DNA of 64,000 bases, taken from Serinicoccus profundi (GTDB taxonomy: Bacteria > Actinomycetota > Actinomycetes > Actinomycetales > Dermatophilaceae). The stretch's first letter is position 1, and the number at the start of each line of letters is the position of its first letter. The notes under the pieces were generated by a model, which saw only the letters and a program-made list of their open reading frames with translations, was not told the DNA's origin and searched no databases. A program made the position numbers and the translations under genes. Positions 9,893 through 13,315 of this stretch are shown here, in pieces. The DNA lies in NCBI RefSeq assembly GCF_008001015.1, contig NZ_CP042862.1, positions 1,798,001 through 1,862,000 of the forward strand, read 5' to 3'.

Positions 9893-11035
9893 TCAGCGGT
9901 GCCGGTCGGTCCTGGCGCCGCCGTCCTGGCTGCCCCGACGCGCTCCGCTGTCGCCCTCGGCGGCGTCGCGGTGGCCATGGTGCTGGGAGTCGCCGAAGAG
10001 TCCGACCTCGTTGATGTCGAGCCGGGCCTCGTCGCCCTCGCGGGTGATGCCGCGGGCGGCGTCCCGACGAGTCTTGAGCAGGCTCGCGACCGCGGTGACG
10101 CCCAGGATGCCGATGATGGCCAGGAGGGACAGCCAGATCGGCACCTCCGGCACGTTGAGGTGCTCACCGCCGTTGATAAACGGGAGCTCGTTCTCGTGCA
10201 TGGCGTGCAGGATGAGCTTGACGCCGATGAAGGCGAGCAGCACCGACAGGCCCAGGCCAAGGTAGACGAGCTTCTTGAGCAGGTCGCCCAGCAGGAAGTA
10301 GAGCTGTCGCAGACCCATGAGCGCGAAGACATTGGCCATGAGGACGAGGTAGGGCTCCTGGGTGAGCCCGAAGATGGCCGGGATCGAGTCCAGGGCGAAG
10401 AGCAGGTCCGTGGTGCCCAGCGCGAGGATGACGATGGCCATCGGGGTGAGCACCCGCTTGCCGCTCTCGACGATCCGCAGCTTGGTGCCGCCGTCCCAGG
10501 ACTGCGTCACGGGGAATCGCTTCTCCACCCAGCGGAGCAGGGCGTTCTCCTCGTAGTCGTCCTCCTCGTCGTCGTGACCGAGGTTCTCCTTGGCCAGCTT
10601 GACGGCGGTGTAGATGAGGAAGGCACCGAAGAGGTAGAAGACCCATGACCAGCGCTCGATCGCGGCAGCGCCGACGAGGATGAAGATCGCGCGCATGACG
10701 AGGGCCATGACGATCCCCACCATGAGGGCGAACTGCTGGTACTTCCTCGGCACGCCGAACTTGGCCATGATGATGAGGAAGATGAAGAGGTTGTCGATGG
10801 AGAGGGAGTACTCCATGAGCCAGCCGGCGTAGAACTCCGCGGCGAACTGGCCGCCGGAGGTGAAGAACACCCCGAGGCCGAAGAGCAGCGCCAGTCCGAT
10901 GTAGATCGACAGCGCGACACTGACCTCCCGCCGGGAGGGCTCGTGCGGGCGTCGACCGAGCACGAGCAGGTCGAAGGCGAAGACGAGGGTGATGAGGACC
11001 AGCGTGACGGTCCACACCCAGCCGGGGACATCCAT
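9893..11035 (-). CDS. TerC-family integral membrane protein, probable Mn2+ exporter
   Basis: 380 aa with about nine membrane segments. Conserved acidic intramembrane motifs are YSLSIDNLFIF and TTDLLFALDSIPAIFG, the presumed metal path of the TerC/Alx family. A cytoplasmic acidic loop (HDDEEDDYEE) separates the halves, and the C-terminal tail is His-rich (FGDSQHHGHRD), possibly metal-binding. TerC proteins export Mn2+, in several cases during metalation of exported enzymes. The 5' leader holds a yybP-ykoY riboswitch (11076-11186), which supports the manganese role directly. The old name tellurite-resistance protein should not be taken as its function. Confidence 0.9.
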   Translation of the reverse strand: MDVPGWVWTVTLVLITLVFAFDLLVLGRRPHEPSRREVSVALSIYIGLALLFGLGVFFTSGGQFAAEFYAGWLMEYSLSIDNLFIFLIIMAKFGVPRKYQQFALMVGIVMALVMRAIFILVGAAAIERWSWVFYLFGAFLIYTAVKLAKENLGHDDEEDDYEENALLRWVEKRFPVTQSWDGGTKLRIVESGKRVLTPMAIVILALGTTDLLFALDSIPAIFGLTQEPYLVLMANVFALMGLRQLYFLLGDLLKKLVYLGLGLSVLLAFIGVKLILHAMHENELPFINGGEHLNVPEVPIWLSLLAIIGILGVTAVASLLKTRRDAARGITREGDEARLDINEVGLFGDSQHHGHRDAAEGDSGARRGSQDGGARTDRHR

Positions 11036-11075
11036 GCGTGGGTACTACCTTCCGATCAGGGCGAACGAGCCGGAC

Positions 11076-11186
11076 CGGAGGTCTCTCCCGCAGCGGGACG
11101 TCCCGGGCAGGACGACGCGCTGCCGACCGCACCGGGCACGGGGCCGTGGTGACGATGGGGTCGCGGGGCGGGGATACTCCCCTCCG
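11076..11186 (-). ncRNA. yybP-ykoY manganese riboswitch upstream of terC
   Basis: On the minus strand the leader begins with GGGGAGTATC (11182-11173), continues with GTCACCACGG (11153-11144) and CCCGGTGCGGTCGG (11136-11123), and closes with GAGACCTCC (around 11086-11078). These match, in order, the conserved GGGGAGUA, GUCA-YACGG, CCCGGU and GAGACC blocks of the Mn2+-sensing yybP-ykoY family. It ends about 42 bases before the terC ATG. In this family Mn2+ binding between two loops turns on expression of exporters. The match is by eye; a covariance-model score would settle it. Confidence 0.82.
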
Positions 11187-11209
11187 ATGAACACCTCCAT
11201 GATCTCACG

Positions 11210-13315
11210 TCAGCCGGTGGCTTCCCGCATCTGACGCAGCTCCTTCTTGAGGTCACCGATCTCGTCGCGGAGCCGGGCCGCGAGCTCGAAGTGGAGGTCC
11301 GTCGCCGCCTGGTGCATCTGCTCGGTCAGCTCGTGGATGAGGTCGGCGAGCTCGGTCGCCGGCAGCTGGTCACCGGTGCGGCGCTCCACCGCGCCGGTCC
11401 CGACGACCGCGGCGGCGGCCCTGCCCCGGCCCTTGCCGCGGGACTGGCTGCGCCCGCTGCCCATGAGCGTCTCGGTGTCCGCGTCCTCCCGCTCGAGCAT
11501 GTCGGTGATGTCGGCGATCCGCTTGCGCAGGGGCGTCGGGTCGATGCCGTGCTCGGCGTTGTAGGCCAGCTGCTTGTCCCGGCGACGGTTGGTCTCATCG
11601 ATCGCCTGCTCCATCGACGGGGTGACGGTGTCGGCATACATGTGCACCTGCCCCGAGACGTTGCGGGCCGCCCGACCGATGGTCTGGATGAGCGAGCGGC
11701 TGGAGCGCAGGAAGCCCTCCTTGTCGGCGTCGAGGATGCTCACGAGGGAGACCTCGGGCAGGTCCAGACCCTCGCGCAGCAGGTTGATCCCGACGAGCAC
11801 GTCGTACTCCCCCAACCGCAGCTCGCGCAGCAGCTCGACGCGACGCAGGGTGTCCACCTCGGAGTGGAGGTAGCGCACCCGCACCCCCTTGTCGAGGAGG
11901 TAGTCGGTGAGGTCCTCGGCCATCTTCTTGGTGAGGGTCGTCACGAGCACCCGCTCGTCCTTGGCGGTGCGCTCCCCGATCTCGTGCAGCAGGTCATCGA
12001 TCTGGCCCTTGGTGGGTTTGAGGACGACCTGGGGGTCGACCAGCCCGGTGGGCCGGATGATCTGCTCGACGTAGCCGTCGCTCTTGGCCATCTCGTAGTC
12101 CCCCGGCGTGGCCGAGAGGTAGACCGTCTGCCCGATCCGCTCGAGGAACTCCTCCCACTTCAACGGCCGGTTGTCCATCGCGCTCGGCAGCCGGAAGCCG
12201 TGGTCGACCAACGTCCGCTTGCGCGACATGTCGCCCTCGTACATCGCACCGATCTGGGGCACGGTGACGTGCGACTCGTCGAGCACGAGCAGGAAGTCCT
12301 CGGGGAAGTAGTCGAGCAGGCAGTTGGGTGCCGTGCCGGCGCTCCGCCCGTCGATGTGGCGGGAGTAGTTCTCGATGCCGGAGCAGGACCCGACCTGGCG
12401 CATCATCTCGATGTCGTAGGTCGTGCGCATCCGCAGTCGCTGCGCCTCCAGGAGCTTGCCCTGCTTCTCGAAGGTCTCGAGCTGGGCGGCGAGCTCGCTC
12501 TCGATGCTGCCGATCGCCCGCTCCATCCGTTCGGGGCCCGCGACGTAGTGCGAGGCCGGGAAGACATACATCTCCCGCTCCTCGCGCACGACCTCGCCGG
12601 TCAGCGGGTTGAGGGTGTAGAGCCGGTCGATCTCGTCACCGAAGAATTCGATCCGCACGGCGAGCTCTTCGTACTGGGGGATGATCTCGACGGTGTCGCC
12701 GCGCACCCGGAAGGTCCCCCGGGAGAAGGCCATGTCGTTGCGGGTGTACTGCATCGTGACGAACCGCCGCAGCAGGTCGTCGCGCTCCACGGTGTCGCCC
12801 ACCCGCAGCCGTTCCATGCGGTCGACGTACTCCTGCGGGGTACCCAGACCGTAGATGCACGACACCGAGGCGACGACGACGACGTCGCGGCGGGTGAGGA
12901 GCGAGTTGGTCGCCGAGTGGCGCAGCCGCTCTACCTCATCGTTGATGGACGAGTCCTTCTCGATGTAGGTGTCGGTCTGCGGGACGTAGGCCTCGGGCTG
13001 GTAGTAGTCGTAGTAGCTGACGAAGTACTCCACCGCGTTGTGGGGCAGCAGCTCCTTGAACTCGTTGGCCAGCTGGGCGGCGAGCGTCTTGTTGGGCGCC
13101 ATGACCAGCGTGGGGCGCTGGACCTGCTCGATCATCCAGGCGGTCGTCGCCGACTTGCCGGTGCCGGTGGCCCCCAGCAGGACGATGTCCTCCTCCCCCG
13201 CTCCCACGCGGCGGGTGAGGTCGGCGATGGCGCGCGGCTGGTCGCCGCTCGGGGAGAAGTCGGAGACGACGCGGAAGGGGTTGACCGTGCGTTGCAGGTC
13301 GGTGGTCGGACGCAT
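11210..13315 (-). CDS. uvrB: UvrABC excinuclease subunit B
   Basis: DNA-damage verification helicase-like ATPase that is handed DNA by UvrA and then recruits UvrC. 701 aa, full length. Walker A is [13 protein letters not shown] (about residues 48-60); the beta-hairpin region reads [21 protein letters not shown] (about 101-121); helicase motifs include [10 protein letters not shown] and QTIGRAARN. The C-terminal UVR motif ([20 protein letters not shown]) binds UvrC. ATG start at 13315. The terC riboswitch begins 24 bases after its stop, so terC is likely transcribed separately or by readthrough. Confidence 0.98.

Follow-up and report, generated by a model that had tools for sequence, protein, structure and literature searches.

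The RNA between uvrB and terC of Serinicoccus profundi is very probably a Mn2+ riboswitch, belonging to an alx/terC sub-type of the yybP-ykoY class that lacks the P2 hairpin and would free the terC Shine-Dalgarno sequence at high Mn2+. It lies on the minus strand of the 64,000-nt stretch of DNA that we analysed (the window), where an initial annotation, made from the letters of the sequence, had proposed a yybP-ykoY manganese riboswitch in the terC leader. That proposal was borne out by a match to a covariance model built without the genus, by covariation among relatives, by homology to the Escherichia coli alx leader and by the manganese-homeostasis genes found downstream of such elements across the phylum. 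The element is a well-preserved, ordinary and expected addition to an established riboswitch class, and its target gene, too, is a familiar one.

The gap between uvrB and terC is 174 nt long and contains all four of the conserved blocks that had been listed in the initial annotation. Read along the minus strand, they follow one another as expected: GGGGAGTA (11182-11175), GTCACCACGG (11153-11144), CCCGGT (11136-11131) and GAGACC (11085-11080). The aptamer does begin 24 nt past the uvrB stop codon, and it is GC-rich, as had been said (76%); the folding energy of the leader is uninformative in DNA of this kind (z = 0.02). A promoter scan of the leader found no sigma-70 consensus promoter, and we therefore do not claim a sigma-70 match. 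If the extended -10 box listed below as a possible one were used, the RNA might begin at about position 11190; a -10-like box, identified by eye, is also retained in Serinicoccus leaders that have lost the aptamer.

Table 1. Features of the uvrB–terC region, in coordinates of the window.
Feature	Position	Strand	Basis
uvrB, upstream neighbour of terC	11210..13315, stop 11212-11210	minus	Pfam UvrB domains
Possible extended -10 box (TG-A-GATCAT)	11199..11204	minus	by eye, Serinicoccus leaders
Riboswitch aptamer, yybP-ykoY (Mn2+) class, alx/terC sub-type, three-way junction without P2	11186-11076	minus	held-out covariance model R1 and covariation
P1.1 5' strand GGAGG, pairs with 11081-11077	11181..11185	minus	R1 alignment
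L1 5' side GGAGUA	11175..11180	minus	coordinates from sequence
P1.2 5' strand UCCC, pairs with GGGA 11089-11086	11171..11174	minus	consensus helix 2
P3 5' strand GACCCCAUCG	11153..11162	minus	fold and R1 alignment
L3 loop region UCACCACG, putative metal-sensing loop, overlaps P3.1 at 11145	11145..11152	minus	sequence and R1 alignment
P3.1 hairpin, GGC 11145-11143 with GCC 11137-11135	11135..11145	minus	consensus helix 4
P3 3' strand CGGUGCGGUC	11125..11134	minus	coordinates from sequence
P4 hairpin GCAGCG...CGCUGC	11090..11123	minus	single-sequence fold; consensus helix 5
P1.2 3' strand GGGA and L1 3' side GAGA	11082..11089	minus	R1 alignment
Switch strand CCUCCGGUC: P1.1 3' strand (11081-11077) and anti-Shine-Dalgarno	11073..11081	minus	unconstrained fold, swap test, covariation
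terC Shine-Dalgarno region GAUCGGAAGG, 12 nt before ATG	11048..11057	minus	sequence; predicted pairing
terC, TerC/Alx family metal-homeostasis membrane protein	9893..11035, ATG at 11035	minus	PF03741, 169 bits; TIGR03718

Approximately 110 terC loci were gathered from Actinobacteria, and the core pattern was present in 98 locus entries as well as in the window copy; among the loci, L083 is that of the window, and L084 appears to come from the same genome as L003. The covariance model, R1, was built from 66 distinct actinobacterial terC leaders with all Serinicoccus sequences excluded, and its consensus structure was derived by RNAalifold. R1 gave the window element 66.6 bits (E = 1.4e-16 in the 64-kb window), with the runner-up match in the same window at 13.3 bits (E = 0.1). 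When the search was extended to the whole genome, a single contig of 3.48 Mb, the E-value of the element was 7.6e-15. This held-out match identifies the aptamer computationally and led us to reject a chance origin for it.

Five helices (P1.1, P1.2, P3, P3.1 and P4) are backed by compensatory change in the 66-leader alignment, in which the invariance of the pattern letters partly reflects how the leaders were chosen; the helices played no part in that choice. Paired cells make up 95% in the real alignment, against 84% in shuffles and 36-54% in slid controls, while cells with both sides changed number 194, against 58 in shuffles. The covariation score was 0.385, compared with 0.177 for shuffles (0/500) and 0.06-0.13 for slid partners. 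P1.1 is 99% paired in the aligned relatives, with compensatory changes; at one pair of P1.2 both sides have changed in 28 of the 66 relatives, and all five pairs of P4 (helix 5) covary.

The window copy carries the full set of loop motifs. The L3 motif, GUCAnnACGG with CCGG at the 3' side of P3, is present as GUCACCACGG and CCCGGU, with its two middle letters varying among relatives, and we take the invariant sensing A to lie in its GUCA block. Flanking P1.1 and P1.2 is the L1 motif, GGGGAGUA/GAGACC, a name that we took by analogy from the Xanthomonas oryzae structure paper (PMC6754395). P3 has a single C-C mismatch in the window copy and is fully paired in S. kebangsaanensis. The P2 hairpin of the four-way junction is absent from the consensus of the 66 leaders, and in the window the spacer between P1.2 and P3 is just 8 unpaired nt. 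We did not treat P2 as defining, since a review calls the mgtA yybP-ykoY aptamer canonical despite its three-way junction (PMC9495176).

The initial annotation had proposed a search with the Rfam family model, RF00080, as the check on its claim, and had held that the lack of an above-threshold match would refute it. With Rfam 15, the window indeed falls below the gathering score of 45, which is a database threshold and not a biological feature: a search of 281 nt gave 11.6 bits (E = 0.28). Taken literally, this is the outcome that was to refute the claim, but the same model finds no match at E<=0.5 in the E. coli alx leader (L171), and a sub-threshold score is therefore no evidence against membership. 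A gathering-level scan of the window and 20 relatives' loci gave no RF00080 match, an E-value scan of 20 loci, nearly all of them R1-positive, gave nothing at E<=1, and the E. coli mntP leader (L170) scored 41.6 bits, below the threshold. In our phylum sample, 45 of 198 genomes were positive with R1 (E<=0.001), compared with the 1 of 198 that passed with RF00080; several of the phylum matches to RF00080, upstream of GDT1 and MntP genes, were also found by R1 with lower scores.

When RF00080 is set against the window, L1, P3 and L3 align weakly. The RF00080 consensus has a longer, UCAACAUACU-type L3 together with P2, whereas the window sub-type has the GUCAnnACGG L3 and is without P2. The leader of Corynebacterium glutamicum cg2157 (terC) was listed under RF00080 at 49.13 bits in Rfam data of 2013, and a 5'UTR was observed there by RNA-seq (PMC3890552); going by that published listing it is, like the present case, an actinobacterial terC with a yybP-ykoY leader. 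C. glutamicum is not among the phylum genomes matched by the Rfam 15 model (E 0.01). From the 2013 listing it appears that actinobacterial terC members were known before and that the present RF00080 model is narrower. That RF00080 fails on the window reflects a shortcoming of the model as it now stands.

R1, although its training set consisted solely of leaders from actinobacterial terC loci, also recognises alx of E. coli, whose leader scores 43.5 bits (E = 1.7e-10) and is described as a Mn-responsive yybP-ykoY switch (PMC9603457). The two leaders serve the same TerC/Alx gene family and have L1 and a GUCAUUACG-type L3 in common, and in alx, too, a segment just downstream, GGCGAGGUC, can pair with the P1.1 3' strand (GACCUUGCC). 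They differ in the lengths of the distal arms and in the nature of the competing segment, which in alx folds into a local hairpin at some distance before the start codon and in the window is the Shine-Dalgarno region itself. By homology, then, the ligand in S. profundi would be Mn2+. We consider it very unlikely that the aptamer has drifted to some other signal, such as another divalent ion or pH, and stands at a distance from RF00080 for that reason. The low RF00080 score and the missing P2 could be read in this way, and in E. coli the switches of both mntP and alx are responsive to alkaline pH as well (PMC9603457). However, a model that misses alx is uninformative on the ligand, the L1, L3 and P1.1 motifs are intact, R1 reaches alx, and the genes downstream encode TerC, GDT1 and P-type ATPases.

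The way in which a Mn2+ aptamer could control terC is suggested by the 3' strand of P1.1, CCUCC, whose sequence complements that of the Shine-Dalgarno region of terC. The longer switch strand, CCUCCGGUC, can form nine pairs with GAUCGGAAGG, with one bulged A. In the unconstrained fold, computed without Mn2+, this anti-Shine-Dalgarno pairing has a probability of approximately 1 and P1.1 is absent; in the computed folds the two pairings are mutually exclusive. The predicted OFF fold has an energy of -88.1 kcal/mol against -76.8 kcal/mol for the ON fold, a gap so large that switching would need co-transcriptional folding and Mn2+ binding, both of which lie outside the energy model.

Across the leaders examined, the pairing between each leader's own anti-Shine-Dalgarno and Shine-Dalgarno partners had a mean of -14.9 kcal/mol; swapping the partners weakened it to -12.7 (sd 0.28), and none of 5000 trials did as well, in a comparison that is uncorrected for relatedness; the window duplex, at -12.3, is weaker than average. 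Pairing of -10 kcal/mol or better is found in 60 of 71 leaders, and strong pairing is missing in about 11 of the 71, mostly from Nocardioides. The pairs change between genera at positions 8-9, outside P1.1. Covarying partners include CCUCCGGUAC with GUACCGGAGG in Cellulomonas, CCUUCGGAG with CUCCGGAGG in Kribbella and CCUUCGGAG with CUCCGAAGG in two Nocardioides, in a listing that is uncorrected for relatedness and for which the best register was chosen in each leader, which favours pairing. An independent instance of the design, unrelated in sequence, comes from a second terC in the S. profundi genome, where CCUUGACGUCGU is set against ACGAUGCGAGG at -13.8.

In the X. oryzae member of the class, Mn2+ between L1 and L3 stabilises P1.1, and a competitor structure would otherwise occupy the P1.1 3' strand (PMC6754395); E. 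coli mntP is turned on at the level of translation by Mn2+ (PMC11647493). We suggest that at low Mn2+ CCUCCGGUC would pair with GAUCGGAAGG and block translation of terC. At high Mn2+ the metal, held between L1 and L3, would stabilise P1.1 (GGAGG/CCUCC), and formation of that helix would withdraw the switch strand and leave the Shine-Dalgarno sequence free, allowing TerC to be made; TerC may then lower or redistribute cytoplasmic Mn2+. Because the P1.1 strand is at the same time the anti-Shine-Dalgarno, and because its pairing covaries, translational activation by Mn2+ is the likely mode of control, with the ON direction being one that we infer.

An intrinsic-terminator platform was rejected, as no intrinsic terminator-like site was found in 10980-11320. 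A broader possibility, to which we give a small but not negligible probability, is that a genuine aptamer acts mainly on transcription, by ending it within the leader with the help of Rho or in some other way, and not by hiding the Shine-Dalgarno sequence. Precedents exist in the intrinsic terminators of yybP-ykoY switches in Bacillus subtilis and Lactococcus lactis and in the Rho coupling of E. coli mntP (PMC11647493), and some Nocardioides leaders are without the anti-Shine-Dalgarno pairing. The missing terminator speaks against such a mechanism, as does the presence of a covarying anti-Shine-Dalgarno pairing in most of the leaders, and any Rho dependence may coexist with that platform. We therefore retain the translational platform for the window. 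The design is simple, since the strand that completes the metal-sensing helix is also the one that would block the ribosome site, and we found no published account of such a platform in Actinobacteria in the open literature searched.

Within a Nocardioides subgroup (L016, L017, L024, L026, L032 and L035), the aptamer is kept and the anti-Shine-Dalgarno pairing is missing. Several of these leaders have a strong hairpin after P1.1 in its place, so that a different expression platform is likely there.

The protein encoded by terC falls within the NCBIfam family TIGR03718, 'R_switched_Alx', at 363.2 bits (cut-off 246.4). It is 92% identical to the S. kebangsaanensis protein, and its nearest named relatives belong to Serinicoccus. 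The initial annotation had predicted a manganese role for this protein and not a tellurite one, and this agrees with the literature. One study sees no evidence for tellurite transport by TerC (PMC10550928), and a riboswitch-controlled TerC of Vibrio parahaemolyticus exports Mn (PMC13274385). By analogy, the window TerC is likely to be a Mn exporter. We go no further than to infer this activity because the B. subtilis TerC proteins, MeeF and MeeY, provide minor Mn efflux and function in the metalation of exported enzymes (PMC10550928).

The second terC of S. profundi (3385338-3386273) is 46% identical to the first and has its own R1 site just upstream (3386479-3386375, minus strand; L114 / L121; 37.3 bits, E = 1.1e-6); the L3 there is of the UCAGUUCG type, and the leader has an anti-Shine-Dalgarno pairing of its own. 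In S. kebangsaanensis (L003) the element of the uvrB-linked copy, terC1, is intact and scores 65 bits, and the genome of the genus that apparently corresponds to it (G047) gave a single R1 site and a single TerC. The terC1 leader is scrambled in S. sediminis (L004), the element is lost in two uncultured Serinicoccus (L005 and L006), and there is an internal deletion in that of Ornithinimicrobium CNJ-824 (L012). All three of these Serinicoccus genomes have kept the R1 element on their second terC. It follows from the three losses that the element is dispensable in the genus, and from the retained second copies that the uvrB-linked terC can do without manganese control where its paralogue is under such control. 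These losses, together with the P3 mismatch and the lack of a gathering-level Rfam match, might be taken to mean that the S. profundi element is itself a chance or decaying remnant whose aptamer-like blocks no longer work in the species. That is the least probable of the alternatives, and we give it hardly any weight: a model trained without any Serinicoccus sequence gives the element 66.6 bits, and the loop motifs, P1.1, P1.2, P3.1, P4 and the anti-Shine-Dalgarno are all intact in the window, as they are in S. kebangsaanensis.

Genes for GDT1, P-type ATPases, MntP and TerC are the usual company of the yybP-ykoY class. In the family to which S. profundi belongs, 53 of 59 genomes had at least one R1 match, and 63 of the 86 matches were followed by a TerC gene at a distance of 23-130 nt; the remaining 23 preceded GDT1 (20), a putative cation exchanger (2) or a PGPGW protein (1). 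The 29 loci inspected in the phylum sample comprised 19 with TerC, 6 with P-type ATPases, 2 with GDT1, 1 with an M50 peptidase and 1 cut by a contig end.

Several of these neighbours deserve separate mention. R1-type elements stand before a putative CaCA-type cation exchanger, recognised by eye, in two family genomes (L193 and L194), and at L150 a gene for an M50 (site-2 type) metalloprotease lies downstream of another. At L191 an R1-type element with CUCAGAC/GUCUGAG anti-Shine-Dalgarno pairing precedes a small PGPGW/TIGR02611-like membrane protein; this was the only PGPGW case seen, though proteins of that family are frequent in the genomes concerned.

Taking the phylum as a whole, we think it rather more probable than its opposite that Actinobacteria share a compact, P2-less sub-class of Mn2+ riboswitch that Rfam misses and in which the P1.1 switch strand doubles as the anti-Shine-Dalgarno. 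Its targets would exceed the known exporters and would include the CaCA-type exchanger, the M50 peptidase and the PGPGW protein, each seen in a single genome or a few, as candidates for a part in Mn homeostasis. The present Rfam model passes over the sub-type in an entire phylum, as it does over alx in E. coli, so annotation pipelines that rely on RF00080 will miss cases in which manganese regulates terC, GDT1 or P-type ATPase genes. Within Serinicoccus, the species with and without the element amount to a natural experiment on the worth of manganese control of TerC.
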